NCBI GenBank assembly: GCA_030145845.1
Contig: JAIXHJ010000016.1
Location: 1 to 64,000, forward strand
Direction of reading: 5' to 3'
Source of the DNA: Pseudomonadota bacterium
GTDB lineage: Bacteria > Pseudomonadota > Gammaproteobacteria > Pseudomonadales > Oceanobacteraceae
DNA length: 64,000 nt
The stretch's first letter is position 1. Every line of letters begins with the position of its first letter. Of this stretch, positions 55,480 through 64,000 are shown piece after piece. Both the position numbers and the translations under genes were made by a program. The notes beneath the pieces were generated by a model, which was not told where the DNA came from, ran no database searches, and saw only the letters and a program-made list of their open reading frames with translations.

Positions 55480-57069
55480 ATGTGGTGGAAACAGGGCGTT
55501 ATTTATCAGATTTATCCGCGCAGCTTTCAGGACAGTAATCACGATGGCATCGGTGATATTCCCGGCCTGATCAGCCGGCTGGATTATCTGAATGACGGCA
55601 CTGAGCAGTCACTGGGCGTTGATGCTCTGTGGCTGTCGCCTTTTTTTCCATCGCCGATGCATGATTTCGGTTATGACATCAGTGACTACCGCGCCATTGA
55701 TCCGGTATTCGGCAGCATGGCCGATTTCACCCGCCTGGTGGAGGAAGCCCACCAGCGTCATATCCGCATCATTCTGGACCTGGTGGTTAACCATACCTCC
55801 GACCAGCATCCGTGGTTTATTGACAGCTGCCATCCGGATTCTGACAAGGCTGACTGGTACCTTTGGCATCAGGGGCCCAGACCACCGAATAACTGGCTTG
55901 GCTGCCTCGGTGGTGCCGGCTGGACATTCCACCCCGGCCGTCAGGCCTGGTACTACCATTCGTTTCTGCCCCAGCAGCCGGACCTTAACTGGCGCCACCC
56001 GGCAGTCAAACAGGCCGTGAAAGATATTATGGCGTTCTGGTTTGATAAAGGGGTGGATGGTTTCCGGCTGGATGTGGTGAACCTGTTTTTCAAGGATAAG
56101 CGGCTGCGTAATAACCCGCTGCACCGCTTCCGTATCGGCCGCCCCTACGACCGTCAGCATCATATTTATGACCGCGACCAGCCGGAGATGCATGAGCTGC
56201 TGCGGGAGTTACGTCAGTGGACCGATCAATGGCCACAACGCATGCTGGTCGGTGAAATTATGCTGGAGAACGGCCGCCACAGCGATCTGCCGGCCAGCTA
56301 CTGCGGCGATAATGATGAACTGCATCTGGCCTTTAATTTTGAATTTTTTCACAGCCGTTTTTCTGCCCCGCGCTTTCACCACATTATCGCCCGCTGGAGC
56401 CAGCGGCTGGGAACGGATAACTGGCCCAACTACACGCTGTCGAATCACGATTTCAGGCGTCATGCCAGCCGCTATGGTGGCCGCAACGGCGGACAGAAGC
56501 TGCGCCTGCTGGCACTCATGCTGCTGACCCTGCGCGGCACACCCTTTCTGTATTACGGCGAAGAAACCGGTATGCCGGAACAGCCGGTACGACCGGATAA
56601 AATGCAGGACCCGGTGGGTAAACGCTACTGGCCGTTGCACCCCGGCCGTGATGGCTGCCGGCGGCCGATGATGTGGTCGGCGCCACAGTCAGATTTCAGC
56701 AGTGCCAGAGCCTGGTTACCGGATGAGCCGCTGGAACAATTCACGGTGCAATATCAGAATCAGCAGGCGGACAGCCTGCTCAACTGGTACCGGCAACTGA
56801 TTCATTGCCGGCGCCGGACGGTGGCGCTGCACAGCGGTGATCAGACTCTGCTGCCTGCTCACCGTCATATTCTGGGCTGGACACGCACAGCCGCGGACCA
56901 GGAATGCCTGGTGCTGCTGAATTTTTCCTGCCGCAGCCGCTCCCTGCCGCTGCAACAGGCTGACTGGCAACTGCTGCTGAACAGTCAGCCACAAACGCCA
57001 GAGTGGCAGGGGCAACGCATCACCCTGGCCGGCCATCAGGCGCTGGTGCTGAGCCGTCAGATCCGGTAA
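55480..57069 (+). CDS. GH13 alpha-glucosidase / oligo-1,6-glucosidase
   Basis: 529-residue TIM-barrel enzyme starting MWWKQGVIYQIYPRSF at 55480 with CAGGAG in front. Catalytic residues: nucleophile Asp198 (DGFRLDV), acid Glu259 (VGEI), transition-state Asp324 (SNHD). DVVNL following the nucleophile is typical of alpha-1,4/1,6-glucosidases. No signal peptide, so it acts on imported oligosaccharides. Its last 13 bp overlap the convergent prephenate dehydratase gene. Confidence 0.9.
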   Translation: MWWKQGVIYQIYPRSFQDSNHDGIGDIPGLISRLDYLNDGTEQSLGVDALWLSPFFPSPMHDFGYDISDYRAIDPVFGSMADFTRLVEEAHQRHIRIILDLVVNHTSDQHPWFIDSCHPDSDKADWYLWHQGPRPPNNWLGCLGGAGWTFHPGRQAWYYHSFLPQQPDLNWRHPAVKQAVKDIMAFWFDKGVDGFRLDVVNLFFKDKRLRNNPLHRFRIGRPYDRQHHIYDRDQPEMHELLRELRQWTDQWPQRMLVGEIMLENGRHSDLPASYCGDNDELHLAFNFEFFHSRFSAPRFHHIIARWSQRLGTDNWPNYTLSNHDFRRHASRYGGRNGGQKLRLLALMLLTLRGTPFLYYGEETGMPEQPVRPDKMQDPVGKRYWPLHPGRDGCRRPMMWSAPQSDFSSARAWLPDEPLEQFTVQYQNQQADSLLNWYRQLIHCRRRTVALHSGDQTLLPAHRHILGWTRTAADQECLVLLNFSCRSRSLPLQQADWQLLLNSQPQTPEWQGQRITLAGHQALVLSRQIR

Positions 57070-57893
57070 TCGTGCGCCGGATAAGAGCCCAGCATACGTA
57101 CATCGCGGGCAAAATATTCCAGTTCTTCCAGCGCCAGTATCATATTGTGCTGCTGCGGATGACCGTGAATATCGACATGAAAATGGCTCGCTTCCATGGT
57201 CGCTCCGTCCATGTAACTTTCCAGCTTGGCCAGGTTAATGCCGTTGGTGGCAAAACCGCCCAGCGCTTTATACAGCGCTGCCGGAATATTGCGCACCGAA
57301 AACAACAGGCTGGTGATGTAATCCATCCCCGGCTCACATTCCTGATGCTGAGGCTCACGGCTGAATACCAGAAAACGGGTGGTATTGCCGATGACATCCT
57401 GAAAGTTCTCGTGCAACACCTGCAGTCCGTACAACTCAGCCGCCAACTTCGAAGCAATTGCGCCGCGCTGCACATCCCCGCTTTCGCTGACCGCCCTGGC
57501 TTCCATCGCAGTATCCACCGCAGCCACCGGTTTCATGCCCAGATTGATAATACGCTGGTGACACTGTGCCAGCGCCTGCGGATGGGACGCCACCTCGCGG
57601 ATATCCGTCATGCGTGCACCGGCAACCCCGAGCAGGCAATGGTTAATCGGTTCAAAGTGTTCCGCCACCACATACAGAGCGGTACGCGGAATCAGGCGGT
57701 AAATTTCCTCAACCCGGCCGGCGGAGGAGTTTTCCAGGGGAATCATCGCCCGGTCGGCAAAGCCATTGGCGACCAGATCCAGTGCACTGAGAAAATCATC
57801 GCAGGCAACGGCTTCCCAGTCCGGAAACACCTTACGGCAGGCCAGATGTGAATAAGCGCCTGCGGTCCCCTGATAAGCCACCCGTTGCTGCAT
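57057..57893 (-). CDS. pheA: Prephenate dehydratase, monofunctional
   Basis: Makes phenylpyruvate from prephenate in phenylalanine synthesis. 278 aa, PDT domain (about 4-180) with the catalytic TTRF (171-174), ACT regulatory domain (193-270) with GFATNGINLAKLE (213-225) then SYM. The common GALV...ESRP motif for phenylalanine binding is ESYM here (225-228), as in alphaproteobacterial-type enzymes. No chorismate mutase part is fused. Divergent from the glucosylglycerate operon. Confidence 0.92.
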   Translation of the reverse strand: MQQRVAYQGTAGAYSHLACRKVFPDWEAVACDDFLSALDLVANGFADRAMIPLENSSAGRVEEIYRLIPRTALYVVAEHFEPINHCLLGVAGARMTDIREVASHPQALAQCHQRIINLGMKPVAAVDTAMEARAVSESGDVQRGAIASKLAAELYGLQVLHENFQDVIGNTTRFLVFSREPQHQECEPGMDYITSLLFSVRNIPAALYKALGGFATNGINLAKLESYMDGATMEASHFHVDIHGHPQQHNMILALEELEYFARDVRMLGSYPAHDYRI

Positions 57894-57940
57894 ACCCTCT
57901 CCTGTTCATTCATTCTGCGCCAATACGGCACACATCATCC

Positions 57941-57994
57941 GCACCAAAAAAGTGCATCATTATTAAGACGGGATTATTCGCACCAAAATGCGCC
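57941..57994. promoter_or_regulatory. Two NtrC-like enhancer sites
   Basis: Site 1 at 57941-57955 is GCAC-N7-GTGC (GCACCAAAAAAGTGC), the exact NtrC half-site architecture. Site 2 at 57980-57994 (GCACCAAAATGCGCC) matches in the left half and partly in the right. Centres are 39 bp apart and lie about 120 and 160 bp upstream of the predicted sigma-54 start. Confidence 0.6.
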
Positions 57995-58081
57995 ACATCA
58001 AAGCCCTATGATGCCAGAATCCCTTATTCTGTGCCCGGAGTTATCACTGAGGGCCGGATGGAATGATGGCTTTGTCCGAAC

Positions 58082-58097
58082 TGGCACAATGTCTGCT
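58082..58097 (+). promoter_or_regulatory. Sigma-54 promoter of the glucosylglycerate operon
   Basis: TGGCACAATGTCTGCT, matching the -24/-12 consensus TGGCAC-N5-TTGC at all but one base and with the required GG-GC spacing. 60 bp upstream of the glycerate kinase start; transcription would begin near 58109. Confidence 0.65.
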
Positions 58098-58156
58098 GAC
58101 ACTCATTTAACGACAACAACCCGTGGCGCAGGACGCGCCGCAACGGAGTAAAGGTT

Positions 58157-59119
58157 ATGACCGCCGCCTGGCCTGCAACAAGTCCGCTCAGCAACGATTG
58201 TCTCCGGCCGCTGCTGGACGCTGAGCCAACCATCAGCACCCTGTCACTGCCCGCCGCCTGGACAGAACAGTGGACCGATGTGTGGGCACCGGTCGCTGCC
58301 CGTCTGGCCATGCTGAAGCAGCAGATGGAGGGCAGTAAACAGGCGCCGGTGATCGGCATTCATGGTGGTCAGGGGTCCGGTAAGTCCACACTCAGCCGCG
58401 CTCTGGCCGGCGTTTACCGTGCCGTATTCGGCTGGAACACCGTCGTCCTTTCCATTGATGACCTGTATCTGCCGCACGCAGACCGGGTCGCCCTGGCCGA
58501 ACAGCAGCATCCGCTGTTACTGACCCGCGGGGTTCCCGGCACCCATGATGCTGCACTGGGCATTAACCTGATTCACCGTATGCAGAACCTGTCTGAAGGT
58601 GACACCCTGAGTATTCCGGCTTTCGATAAACCCAGCGATGACCGTCTGCCGTCATCACAGTGGCATCAGGTCAGCGGTCCGGTTGACCTGATTCTGTTTG
58701 AAGGCTGGTGTGTCGGATGCCGGCCGGTCAGTGATGAAGAGCTGGAAGTACCGCTCAATCCGCTGGAGGCCCTGGAAGACATGGATGGCAGCTGGCGGCA
58801 CTGGGTTAATGCACAACTGGCCGGCCCTTACGCCAGCTGGTTTGCAGAAATTGATTTTCTGCTGATGCTGAAGGTACCGGATATGCAAGCCGTACTGAGC
58901 TGGCGCACGCAACAGGAAACGGAAAACCGGCAGCAGGCTCAGGCCGGCGCTCCCGACCGCAGTCTGGATGCCGCCCGTCTGCAGCGCTTTATTCAGCATT
59001 ATCAGCGCCTCACGGAACAGGCACTGAAATATATGCCACAACAGGCCGATCTGGTGTTAACCCTGAATCCGCAGCATCAGGTGGCCGCCATCAGCGATGG
59101 CCAGGGAGGACTGCAATGA
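58157..59119 (+). CDS. D-glycerate 3-kinase (GLYK type)
   Basis: Phosphorylates D-glycerate to 3-phosphoglycerate using ATP. 320 aa of the plant/fungal GLYK group: Walker A GGQGSGKST (70-78), LSIDDLYLPHADR (about 98-110), FEGWCVG (near 180). First gene of the operon; the phosphatase starts 4 bp before its stop. Its product 3-phosphoglycerate is the acceptor of the GpgS reaction two genes on, and glycerate is what glucosylglycerate hydrolysis or phosphorolysis yields, so it fits both synthesis and recycling. Confidence 0.85.
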   Translation: MTAAWPATSPLSNDCLRPLLDAEPTISTLSLPAAWTEQWTDVWAPVAARLAMLKQQMEGSKQAPVIGIHGGQGSGKSTLSRALAGVYRAVFGWNTVVLSIDDLYLPHADRVALAEQQHPLLLTRGVPGTHDAALGINLIHRMQNLSEGDTLSIPAFDKPSDDRLPSSQWHQVSGPVDLILFEGWCVGCRPVSDEELEVPLNPLEALEDMDGSWRHWVNAQLAGPYASWFAEIDFLLMLKVPDMQAVLSWRTQQETENRQQAQAGAPDRSLDAARLQRFIQHYQRLTEQALKYMPQQADLVLTLNPQHQVAAISDGQGGLQ

Positions 59120-59925
59120 AAAAGCCCGCACTGCCTTTACTGGTCGTCACGGATCTCGACGGAAGCCTGCTGGATCACGATACCTACAGTTTCCGCCCGG
59201 CGATGCCCGCCCTCGCCTGTCTGCGCCAGCTGGGTATTCCCTGCATTCTCAACAGCAGCAAAACGTTTGATGAAATGCTGCTGCTGCGCGACAAACTCAA
59301 TAACACCGATCCCTTTGTCTGTGAAAATGGCGGAGCGGTGTTTATTCCGCGCGAAAATGGCAAAGGCTTTAACAGTGAAATGACCGGCAGCAGTTACAAC
59401 AGTATTCTGAAAACCCTGAATGAACTGCGTCAGTACGGTTATCACTTCCGCGGTTTCAACGATATGACAGCCACCGAGGTGGCGGCGGTCACCGGCCTGA
59501 CCAGCGACGATGCCCTGATGGCCAAACACCGTCACGCCTCAGAACCGATTCTGTGGCAGGATAACGATGAACGGCTGGATGAATTTATGAGTGCCCTGGC
59601 CTGCCATAACCTGCGTTTGCTGCGCGGCGGGCGTTTTCTGCATGTGATGGGGATGAATGATAAATCCGAAGCGGTTACATTTTTTAAAGATTACTATGAA
59701 AAACTCTGGGATGAGAGCCTGGATGTGGTCGCCCTGGGAGACGGCGACAACGACCTGAGCATGCTGGAAGCGGCCGATTACCCGATCGTCATTCCAGGTG
59801 CCAGCCAGACCCTCAGCCCGGAAAACCCGGCGACCCGAACCGCCGACAAGCACGGACCGGCCGGCTGGAATGACACCCTGCTGGCCTTACTGAATGAGCT
59901 CACCAAGGAGGCTACCCGTGTCTGA
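59116..59925 (+). CDS. gpgP: Glucosyl-3-phosphoglycerate phosphatase (HAD-IIB)
   Basis: Removes the phosphate from glucosyl- (or mannosyl-) 3-phosphoglycerate. 269-residue HAD-IIB enzyme of the MPGP group: DLDGSLLD (13-20, nucleophile Asp13 and Asp15), LNSSKTF near 50, LGDGDNDLSMLEAADYPIV (about 205-223). The GpgS gene starts within its last 8 bp. Glucosyl substrate is inferred from the GpgS neighbour, since the family includes mannosyl enzymes. Confidence 0.88.
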   Translation: MKKPALPLLVVTDLDGSLLDHDTYSFRPAMPALACLRQLGIPCILNSSKTFDEMLLLRDKLNNTDPFVCENGGAVFIPRENGKGFNSEMTGSSYNSILKTLNELRQYGYHFRGFNDMTATEVAAVTGLTSDDALMAKHRHASEPILWQDNDERLDEFMSALACHNLRLLRGGRFLHVMGMNDKSEAVTFFKDYYEKLWDESLDVVALGDGDNDLSMLEAADYPIVIPGASQTLSPENPATRTADKHGPAGWNDTLLALLNELTKEATRV

Positions 59926-61132
59926 TTTCTACCAGAACGGTATAATTACAACATTGCACAACCTGACTGACCGTCCACTGGAAGATCTGGAAAAAGAACT
60001 GATGAGTTTTTCCAGAATCCGTCCCATGTCACTGGTACTGCCATCGCTCTACTCTGAGCTGACCGGCCCGGCGCTGAACAATATCATCGATGACGTTGCC
60101 AGAGTGCCCTACCTGAATGAAATTGTGATCGGCCTCGACCGCGCCAGCGAAGCAGAATACGCCCACGCCAGGGAGTTTTTCAGCCGCCTGCCACAGCACC
60201 ACCGTATTCTCTGGAATGACGGCCCACGCCTGCGCAAAATCGACGCCCTGCTGGAACAGGAAGGCCTGGCGCCGAAGGAAATGGGCAAAGGCCGTAACGT
60301 CTGGTACTGCTATGGCTATGTCCTGGCCTCCGGCCGGGCTGAAGCCGTGGCCCTGCATGACTGTGATATCGTCACCTACAACCGTGGCATGCTGGCACGC
60401 CTGATTTATCCGGTGGCCAACCCGGCTTTCAACTACGAATTTGCCAAGGGGTATTACTCCCGTATTGCCGACGGCAAACTGAACGGTCGTGTCAGCCGCC
60501 TGCTGGTAACCCCGCTGATCCGTGCACTGAAAAAAGTGTATGGCTCACTCGATTATCTGGAATACCTCGACAGCTTCCGTTACCCGCTGTCCGGCGAATT
60601 TTCCATGCGCGCCGATGTGCTCAACGATATCCGTATCCCCTCCGACTGGGGACTGGAAATCGGTGTACTGTCAGAAATGAAACGCAACTACTCCACCAAC
60701 CGTCTGTGTCAGGTGGATATTGCGGATGTCTACGATCATAAACACCAGCCATTGTCCGAAGATGATGTCAGCCGTGGCCTGTCGAAAATGAGTACCGACA
60801 TCTGTAAGGCTATTTTCCGCAAACTGGCAACTCAGGGCGAAGTCTTCACCACCGAAACCTTCCGCTCGATCAAGGCCACCTATTTCCGTATCGCCCTCGA
60901 CTTTATCGAGACCTACTACAACGATGCGCGCATGAATGGTCTGACACTGGACCGCCATGCGGAAGAAAAAGCGGTGGAACTGTTTGCCGAAAATATCATG
61001 GGAGCCGGTGAACATTTCCTCGCCAATCCGATGGAAACACCCTTTATTCCCAGCTGGAACCGGGTTATTTCAGCCATTCCCGATATTCTTGACCGCCTCT
61101 ACGAAGCGGTGGAAGAAGATAACGCCAGCTGA
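59918..61132 (+). CDS. gpgS: Glucosyl-3-phosphoglycerate synthase
   Basis: GT81 glycosyltransferase that adds glucose from NDP-glucose to 3-phosphoglycerate, giving the precursor of glucosylglycerate. 404 aa from GTG at 59918, chosen because an AAGGAGG ribosome binding site (59905-59911) lies right before it, inside the gpgP 3' end. GKG (123-125) and HDCDIVTY (147-154), with Asp148 and Asp150 as the DxD metal motif, are visible. Last gene of the three-gene operon, followed by a terminator. Confidence 0.92.
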   Translation: MSDFYQNGIITTLHNLTDRPLEDLEKELMSFSRIRPMSLVLPSLYSELTGPALNNIIDDVARVPYLNEIVIGLDRASEAEYAHAREFFSRLPQHHRILWNDGPRLRKIDALLEQEGLAPKEMGKGRNVWYCYGYVLASGRAEAVALHDCDIVTYNRGMLARLIYPVANPAFNYEFAKGYYSRIADGKLNGRVSRLLVTPLIRALKKVYGSLDYLEYLDSFRYPLSGEFSMRADVLNDIRIPSDWGLEIGVLSEMKRNYSTNRLCQVDIADVYDHKHQPLSEDDVSRGLSKMSTDICKAIFRKLATQGEVFTTETFRSIKATYFRIALDFIETYYNDARMNGLTLDRHAEEKAVELFAENIMGAGEHFLANPMETPFIPSWNRVISAIPDILDRLYEAVEEDNAS

Positions 61133-62581: not shown

Positions 62582-64000
62582 TTACGGCGCCGTCAGCCAG
62601 ACCGTCTGATACGGCGACAGCACCAGCTCTTCCGTCACCACTGACGCTTCATAAGCCAGCAGATCTGACAGTCCGTCCGGCAGGAAACCCAGCGAGGCCA
62701 GTGGCAGCTTCAGCATCCGCTCCGTCACATTGGAGATGGCGAACAGCGTCTGCTCTGCGTGACTGCGACGGTTAATAAAGAGGTCGGTATTGATACGCAC
62801 GATGTCCTGCCGGGCATCCGGGTGGAAGGCCTTCTGCCCGCTGCGTATGCGCAGCATACGCCGCAGTTCCTTAAAAACTTCCGCCTGCGGTGTGACCGGA
62901 TTATTCAGCAGACATTCAAGTTCCGTCTTGTCCCAGATCTTACGGTTGATGGAACGGGTACGGCCGGTTTTCTCCACATGCTCCAGATCATTCGGCGTGG
63001 CCAGCAGGCTGTGAATATACACCGCCGGAATTCCCTGCATGGCGAGCATGATAGCCTGCGAACAAAGGAAACGCTGAACCTGAAAATGATCCGTCCCCCG
63101 GCGGGTGCCCATACAGGCATCAAACAGGGTGATGTTGATTTCATACGGGCTCTGACTGCCGTCCGGATTGGCTTTCATACTGACGAAGCCACCGAAACGG
63201 TGCATACAGTCAATCAGGTCCTGCACTTCCCGCTCAGGCAGTAATCCCTCTACCGGACGCACACCGATGCCGTCATGTGAGGCGGTAAAGTTCAGATAGC
63301 TGCAGCCTTCCGGCAGCGGCGGAATTTTATCCGCCCAATCAGTCAGGAAGCTGGCATTTCCGCGGTTCAGGGCATGCAGAACCAGAGGCGGCAGACCAAA
63401 CTGATACACCATGTGCGCTTCATCGGCGTTACCGAAATAACTCAGGTTTTCCGCCACCGGTACATTGGTCTCGGTGAGCAGAATGGTACGCGGCGCACAG
63501 AAATCGAGTACATCACGCATGAGTTTGACCACTTCATGCGTCTGCGGCAGGTGAATGCAGTTAGTGCCCAGCTGTTTCCACAGATAAGCAATGGCATCCA
63601 GACGGATAAAGCGTGCGCCCCGTTCCACATACAGCAGCAGAATCTGAATAAATTCCACCAGCACCGCCGGATTGGCAAAATTCAGATCAATCTGATCTTC
63701 ACTGAACGTTGCCCAGACATGACGCACGCCACGGTGAGTATGGACCGGTGTCAGCAGCGGCGTATTACGCGGCCGGGTAACCTGAGACACGTCGGTTTCC
63801 GGATCCACTTCAACAAAATAATCACTGTAGGGTTCGTTATTGGCGATGTAATCGAAAAACCACAGGTTTTCGCGCGAGCAATGGTTGATGACCAGATCAA
63901 TCATCAGATGGAAATGTTCTTCGATGCTGGCAATATCATTCCAGTCACCCCAGTCGGCGTTGACCTGACGGTAATCAATCACCGAAAAGCCATCGTCCGA
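62582..64000 (-). CDS. GH13_18 phosphorylase (probable glucosylglycerate phosphorylase), 5' truncated
   Basis: Partial: the gene enters from the right edge, so the N terminus is missing; 472 codons are in the window. The motifs of the sucrose-phosphorylase-like GH13_18 group are visible: DLVINHCSREN, FIRLDAIAYLWK (nucleophile Asp), LLTETNVP (acid Glu) and ASHDGIGV. In this group glucosylglycerate phosphorylase splits glucosylglycerate with phosphate into glucose 1-phosphate and glycerate. I prefer that role because gpgS, gpgP and glycerate kinase are only 1.5 kb away, but sucrose phosphorylase cannot be ruled out without the acceptor-site loop. Confidence 0.78.
   Translation of the reverse strand, partial: SDDGFSVIDYRQVNADWGDWNDIASIEEHFHLMIDLVINHCSRENLWFFDYIANNEPYSDYFVEVDPETDVSQVTRPRNTPLLTPVHTHRGVRHVWATFSEDQIDLNFANPAVLVEFIQILLLYVERGARFIRLDAIAYLWKQLGTNCIHLPQTHEVVKLMRDVLDFCAPRTILLTETNVPVAENLSYFGNADEAHMVYQFGLPPLVLHALNRGNASFLTDWADKIPPLPEGCSYLNFTASHDGIGVRPVEGLLPEREVQDLIDCMHRFGGFVSMKANPDGSQSPYEINITLFDACMGTRRGTDHFQVQRFLCSQAIMLAMQGIPAVYIHSLLATPNDLEHVEKTGRTRSINRKIWDKTELECLLNNPVTPQAEVFKELRRMLRIRSGQKAFHPDARQDIVRINTDLFINRRSHAEQTLFAISNVTERMLKLPLASLGFLPDGLSDLLAYEASVVTEELVLSPYQTVWLTAP

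Follow-up and report, generated by a model that had tools for sequence, protein, structure and literature searches.

Does nitrogen status directly switch the synthesis of the osmolyte glucosylglycerate through RpoN, as the first-pass annotation of a glycerate kinase-gpgP-gpgS operon had proposed? That glucosylglycerate builds up under nitrogen limitation and can substitute for glutamate, which the annotation had taken as known, is stated in a passage of PMC11009771. Mycobacterial accumulation under nitrogen limitation is described in a passage of PMC6608630, and excerpts of these two papers, citing Klahn 2010, Goude 2004, and Behrends 2012, report accumulation in cyanobacteria, mycobacteria, and Erwinia chrysanthemi. 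The solute and the trigger are the same as those considered here, but no promoter or activator of the synthesis genes is given in those excerpts. The operon is located in a window comprising the first 64,000 bases of contig JAIXHJ010000016.1, which belongs to a 4.08-Mb genome of 24 contigs.

The gene order glycerate kinase-gpgP-gpgS proved to be correct. The first gene (58157-59119, plus strand) encodes a D-glycerate 3-kinase of the GLYK type, identified by phmmer matches to PDB entries 7xpc (E 1.7e-22) and 6ckg (E 1.4e-20); no Pfam family matched. The product of gpgP (59116-59925, plus strand) is a member of the mannosyl-3-phosphoglycerate phosphatase family (TIGR01486, 224.2 bits at a cut-off of 164.75) and is assigned as glucosyl-3-phosphoglycerate phosphatase, the glucosyl substrate being probable because gpgS adjoins. 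Glucosyl-3-phosphoglycerate synthase is encoded by gpgS (59918-61132, plus strand), most likely starting with GTG at 59918. Its match to NF040724 (E 8.6e-110, 367.3 bits) is below the curated 700-bit cut-off, and its sugar donor is therefore assigned by homology only. The protein matches mycobacterial GpgS structures with E values of 1e-5 to 2e-4 and is 93% identical to GpgS of the Thalassolituus genomes L002-L004, which places the genome among the marine gammaproteobacteria of that group. The gpgS and gpgP genes are encoded together, as expected for glucosylglycerate biosynthesis. The same intergenic region precedes a divergent prephenate dehydratase gene (57057-57893, minus strand; NF008866, over the cut-off). 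This gene lies beside the operon in all 18 named family loci L002-L019 and in 26 of the 27 loci L082-L108, and this linkage identifies the operon as orthologous across the family. Downstream of the operon, a GH13 phosphorylase-like gene on the minus strand spans 62582 to the end of the window at 64000 and continues in the contig to about 64315. Its nearest solved structure is sucrose phosphorylase 7qqj, glucosylglycerol phosphorylase 7xdq being another match, and it could serve the recycling of some glucosyl solute.

Direct reading confirmed three control sites in front of the operon. The upstream predicted NtrC-type enhancer site (57941-57955), GCACCAAAAAAGTGC, is a perfect GCAC-N7-GTGC palindrome that scores 16.6 of 19.5 bits with an NtrC consensus matrix and 20.6 of 24.8 bits with a matrix of the glnA and torF-glnK sites of the family. 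The candidate downstream enhancer site (57980-57994), GCACCAAAATGCGCC, is offset from it by 39 bp, has one good and one degenerate half-site, and scores 2.0 bits alone; it is backed mainly by relatives, since their 39-bp register often has a better match. These sites, of the GCACC-N5-GGTGC type, precede the -24 element of a predicted sigma-54 promoter (58082-58097, plus strand) by 142 and 103 bp. The promoter, TGGCACAATGTCTGCT, has the GG-N10-GC spacing, agrees with the RpoN consensus TGGCAYR-N4-YTGCW, scores 16.7 of 20.0 bits with a sigma-54 consensus matrix, and would place the transcription start near 58108. No strict match to the IHF motif WATCARNNNNTTR was found between enhancer and promoter (57941-58110), and no Rfam family reached the gathering score in 57700-58400. 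A sigma-70 scan of 57400-58500 yielded one promoter-like site, on the minus strand and facing the divergent gene (0.5 expected from shuffles), and none facing the operon.

The conservation of these sites was analyzed in relatives. The kinase search covered 93 genomes, 44 of which, including the window's own, belong to the window's family. The kinase was present in 40 of these 44 genomes, with 27 copies (own included) at 52-100% identity and 13 at 39-44%. A sigma-54 site preceded the kinase in all 27 close copies (L082-L108), scoring 13.6-18.7 bits out of a maximum of 20.0, and its core was kept in every one although the surrounding DNA had strongly diverged. The 18 named family loci, mostly from the same species as L082-L108, gave the same result. 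For motif statistics, 24 distinct regions were used. Exact duplicates had been removed, and L010, L089, and L090 were left out for their likeness to L009, L004, and L015 (94%, 83%, and 100% identity over 400 bp, respectively). The 24 regions share ancestry and do not represent 24 independent events. The best NtrC-matrix score averaged 12.3 bits over the 24 regions, compared with a mean of 4.3 bits in 100 rounds of dinucleotide shuffling (highest round, 6.2), and 22 regions contained an NtrC-like site of at least 9 bits by the NtrC consensus matrix. Among the 43 spacings between 18 and 60 bp, the best for a site pair was 39 bp (score 10.9), followed by 52 bp (5.9) and 26 bp (4.8), while no shuffle round reached -2 at any spacing. 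Both members of the 39-bp pair scored above zero in 13 of the 24 regions. Depending on the lineage, the best enhancer lay about 80 to 230 bp from the promoter, a variation that enhancers tolerate.

Of the 13 genomes of the family in which the kinase has diverged, four contained a sigma-54 site of at least 13.5 bits and eight an NtrC-type site of at least 11.5 bits, some of the NtrC-type sites lying within or near the coding start. Both sites in the expected order were found in one of these genomes (L213, where the sigma-54 site reached only 11.9 bits). Of 21 order-level relatives, seven had a sigma-54 site of at least 13.5 bits, three an NtrC-type site, and one (L238) both. In three loci from another genus of the family (L212, L216, and L222), a sigma-54-like site of the TGGTTC type (12.2-13.5 bits) comes first and an NtrC-type site follows 61-73 bp downstream of it; with this order, the enhancer would sit downstream of the promoter.

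The enhancer sites resemble those of the family's own nitrogen genes. The glnA and torF-glnK loci of the family supplied 51 distinct sites for a nitrogen-gene matrix (torF is the name we take for genes of Pfam Gcw_chp); these sites were chosen with the NtrC consensus, so the matrix is not wholly independent. A sigma-54 site in the set range was present in 28 of 30 torF-glnK loci (L210 and L211 were dropped) and in all 30 glnA loci. Absence of the sites from close relatives had been set beforehand as a refuting result; instead, the sigma-54 site was present in 27 of 27 genomes, and with the nitrogen-gene matrix every one of the 24 gpg regions exceeded the 95% level of single-base-shuffled regions, 23 of them also exceeding the 99% level. 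A score of at least 12.9 bits (rounded) was found in 22 of the 24 gpg regions versus 10 of 991 random 260-bp pieces taken from 18 of the gpg loci and 2 of 44 further intergenic gaps. The five central site positions, left free in the starting matrix, had an A/T fraction of 0.86 at gpg, 0.86 at glnA, and 0.81 at torF-glnK, compared with 0.49 in the 50 listed of the 80 genome-wide GCAC-N7-GTGC matches; the regions overall were 51%-58% A/T.

The first-pass annotation had described both the order of the sites and their distances as those of NtrC-controlled genes. The architecture holds, being common to glnA and torF-glnK-amtB, but the 39-bp spacing does not. At torF-glnK the favored spacing was 33 bp, and 39 bp scored -3.6; at glnA, 52 bp scored best with 31 and 30 bp close behind, and 39 bp scored 6.2. 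The gpg promoter is like the family glnA and torF-glnK-amtB promoters in its -24/-12 element (TGGCACAATGTCTGCT, compared with TGGCACACCCACTGCT at the genome's own torF), in the enhancer motif with its A/T-rich center, and in the location of enhancers roughly 80-200 bp upstream, but its target makes an osmolyte and does not serve nitrogen uptake or assimilation. In enteric promoters of the glnAp2 type, two NtrC dimer sites lie upstream of a sigma-54 promoter at a spacing of about 32 bp, or three helical turns. Two sites and a sigma-54 promoter are also present at gpg, but the sites are 39 bp apart and one of them is degenerate. An NtrC-like site of at least 9 bits occurred in 29 of the 30 glnA regions of the family; the glnA of the window's genome has a sigma-54 site and no NtrC-like site of even 8 bits.

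Motif patterns were counted over both strands of the 4.08-Mb genome. The pattern TGGCAYR-N5-TGCW had 34 matches (17 for the reversed-pattern control) and GCAC-N7-GTGC had 80 (control, 41). Since these counts are low, the occurrence of both patterns in the right order within one 260-bp gap is unlikely by chance; at the same time, the matches are only about twice as numerous as in controls, so many single matches are due to chance. Thirty of the 34 sigma-54-type matches were taken as loci. An NtrC-like site of at least 10 bits within 300 bp upstream was found in 7 of the 30 loci versus 9 of 207 control windows located elsewhere in the same loci, and one of at least 14 bits in 5 of the 30 versus 1 of the 207. 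The seven loci with both sites were gpg and six others. Five of the six are nitrogen or likely nitrogen genes: those of an ammonium transporter, a transporter of the formate/nitrite family (its score fell short of the curated cut-off), and an ABC binding protein of the NMT1 type, as well as torF-glnK-amtB and a second member of the glutamine synthetase family. The sixth encodes a 2OG-Fe(II) oxygenase, and its NtrC-like site was the weakest of the seven (11.5 bits). The upstream gpg site (16.6 bits) was outscored only by the site of the formate/nitrite transporter (17.1 bits). A perfect NtrC-type palindrome, TGCACCATATTGGTGCA, was also observed at C3:358333-358347 (about position 2333 of L176). 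It lies close to where a minus-strand gene starts and precedes a gene that, judging from its sequence, we take to be purL-like; no sigma-54 site of at least 13.5 bits was found near it in the 5-kb stretch.

The genome encodes the regulators needed for such a promoter. RpoN was represented by one match over the cut-off (E 7.7e-71), and a single NtrC exceeded its family cut-off (761.8 bits); its gene is preceded by one for NtrB (407.3 bits, over the cut-off). GlnK and a second PII-type protein were also encoded. The C-terminal domain of NtrC aligns to the NtrC DNA-binding domain 1ntc, and its recognition helix, GWGRNTLTRK, contains R, N, and R at positions that are alanine in 1ntc; these three residues are presumably the DNA-contacting ones. 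A nifH gene over the cut-off was found at C1:178441-179265, with a sigma-54-type site upstream (C1:178292-178307). Among 43 family genomes, 10 had nifH over the cut-off, and every one of these belongs to the 27 genomes in which the sigma-54 promoter precedes the kinase. In the remaining 17 of the 27, no nifH match exceeded the cut-off, so the gpg promoter is not bound to nitrogen fixation.

What the DNA shows, namely the conserved sites, their likeness to those of nitrogen promoters, and genes for RpoN, NtrB, NtrC, and GlnK, makes it very probable that an RpoN-dependent, NtrC-activated promoter drives glycerate kinase-gpgP-gpgS directly under nitrogen shortage. The proposal that nitrogen status directly switches synthesis through RpoN is supported as the best reading of the sequence, from which we infer direct control. 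According to general knowledge of NtrC and RpoN, NtrB would phosphorylate NtrC when nitrogen is short, and NtrC would then bind both enhancer sites and oligomerize. Through DNA looping, it would drive sigma-54 RNA polymerase at 58082-58097 into the open complex, so that transcription would start near 58108. The kinase would convert glycerate to 3-phosphoglycerate, GpgS would join glucose to it, and GpgP would remove the phosphate to yield glucosylglycerate, a nitrogen-free anion that could replace glutamate as counter-ion and osmolyte. Binding and activation, as well as induction by nitrogen shortage and a physiological benefit, would follow from this scheme, and gpg would be a physiologically sensible NtrC target.

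An alternative is that the promoter is sigma-54-dependent but served by another enhancer-binding protein recognizing a similar palindrome, for instance a sensor of osmotic or carbon stress, with the 39-bp spacing as its signature. The disfavor of 39 bp at torF-glnK and glnA agrees with this, but the gpg sites fit the nitrogen-gene matrix, including its A/T-rich center. Moreover, of nine activator-type genes in the genome, the C-terminus was read in eight, and the NtrC recognition helix was found only in NtrC; the ninth, L165, was outside this comparison and could be counted in favor of another activator. No dedicated activator gene was found next to gpg: an activator AAA+ domain was detected neither in the 80 gpg loci nor in the window. 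The gpg operons of Marinobacter and Endozoicomonas have sigma-54 sites without convincing NtrC sites, and another activator may act there. For the window's family, we consider a different activator unlikely.

The 80 gpg loci were the best of 540 GpgS relatives, and 78 regions were scored (L066 and L080 were too short). A sigma-54 site of at least 14 bits within 1,500 bp before gpgP was found in 41 of the 78 regions versus 6 of 317 control windows; 15 of the 41 were from the window's family, 13 from Marinobacter, six had galU-headed operons, and seven were others. The Marinobacter block TGGTACGAATTCTGCT or its variant (for example, around position 5134 in L039) was present in 21 of 28 loci and not found in 7. 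In six loci (L021, L022, L025, L026, L030, and L042; five Endozoicomonas records and one titled Salinisphaera), a sigma-54 site of 15.6-18.1 bits was located immediately before a gene whose sequence we take to be that of galU. Within 400 bp upstream in these six loci, the best nitrogen-gene-matrix score was only 5.3. In the seven Marinobacter loci examined for NtrC sites, scores above 6 came only from the palindrome GGCACCTGAAAGGTGC, about 355 bp upstream. This palindrome was set aside, as by eye it lies inside the divergent gene, with GGCGC replacing GGTGC in several species. Likewise, TGGCAC-N5-TTGAA in Alteromonas, Paraglaciecola, and Moritella loci was rejected as a sigma-54 site, being without the GC of the -12 element. 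Strong NtrC-type sites with no sigma-54 site of 11.5 bits preceded the gpg genes in L024, L050, L052, and L057 from other gammaproteobacteria. One of them, L052 (uncultured gammaproteobacterium), has twin CGCACCATTTTGGTG sites located 78 and 38 bp ahead of the gpgP start as extrapolated, with no sigma-54 site detected beside them; their 40-bp spacing is similar to the 39 bp seen in the window's family. In L045, L068, and L069 (Malonomonas, Desulfuromonadales), the sigma-54-like sequence TGGCACCTGCCTTGCA and its variants (14.3-16.3 bits) were observed between the kinase and gpgP genes, 53-56 bp before gpgP. These data suggest RpoN control with another activator in gpg operons of the Marinobacter and Endozoicomonas type. 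NtrC control is supported for the window's family, and sigma-54 control seems to be wider.

Returning to the window, it is quite improbable that the NtrC-type sites act on the divergent prephenate dehydratase gene, or in repression of both genes, and do not activate gpg. The upstream site does begin only 48 bp from the prephenate dehydratase start codon, but the sigma-54 promoter faces gpg, and no sigma-54 site of at least 9 bits faces the divergent gene in 57850-58160. Besides, NtrC-like sites precede the kinase in the gammaproteobacterial loci L020, L024, and L050, where no such neighbor was detected, although only L020 has a sigma-54 site there (weak, 11.6 bits). Least probable of all, with very little chance of being right, is that the matches are fortuitous and that transcription comes from a sigma-70 or sigma-S promoter which escaped detection. 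In favor of this, a match to a consensus is weak evidence by itself, the downstream enhancer site is degenerate, and a CTATACT-like -10 sequence can be seen by eye just upstream of the sigma-54-like block in Marinobacter. Against it, the core is invariably kept in otherwise diverged DNA, the sites are enriched relative to shuffles, random pieces, and other gaps, and the scan revealed no forward sigma-70 site.

Searches of the open full-text literature yielded no account of an action of NtrC or RpoN on gpg genes, and among the matches listed none was, by title or start of abstract, a paper on the promoter of the synthesis genes in gammaproteobacteria. Term searches found glucosylglycerate only among the references, and gpgS absent, in a paper on the M. 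smegmatis GlnR regulon (PMC3662644), a reference entry as the sole mention in an E. coli NtrC paper (PMC3870243), and no word beginning with "glycerate" or "phosphoglycerate" in a sigma-54 regulon survey (PMC12316311). Passages of PMC3308980 present Chromohalobacter salexigens as a gammaproteobacterial producer and describe no nitrogen-regulated promoter. Osmolyte genes, with no glucosyl solute among them, were altered in a Sinorhizobium GlnD/GlnBK transcriptome according to sections of PMC3596328, and sigma-38 was proposed as coordinator of osmolytes, including glucosylglycerate, in parts of a computational osmoregulation model of Synechococcus WH8102 (PMC2874817). Accumulation under nitrogen limitation is thus already known, and the transcriptional link from the nitrogen regulator to gpg would be a new target of a known regulator.

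The NtrC-activated promoter proposed here bears on the known accumulation of glucosylglycerate in nitrogen-lacking cells that are salt-stressed or starved, for which the passages of the papers give no transcriptional cause. The gpg promoter is a concrete candidate for this cause, in which the nitrogen regulator itself would command the choice of osmolyte. The window's genome also carries nifH, so a cell that possibly saves nitrogen by means of glucosylglycerate also has a marker gene of nitrogen fixation. Operons headed by glycerate kinase in Thalassolituus relatives and Marinobacter and by galU in Endozoicomonas raise a broader idea, which we advance tentatively and regard as somewhat doubtful: RpoN control of glucosylglycerate synthesis may be a recurrent rule in marine gammaproteobacteria, with differing operon heads and partly differing activators, NtrC acting in the Thalassolituus family. 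If true, a general genetic switch would exchange nitrogen-rich osmolytes for nitrogen-free ones.
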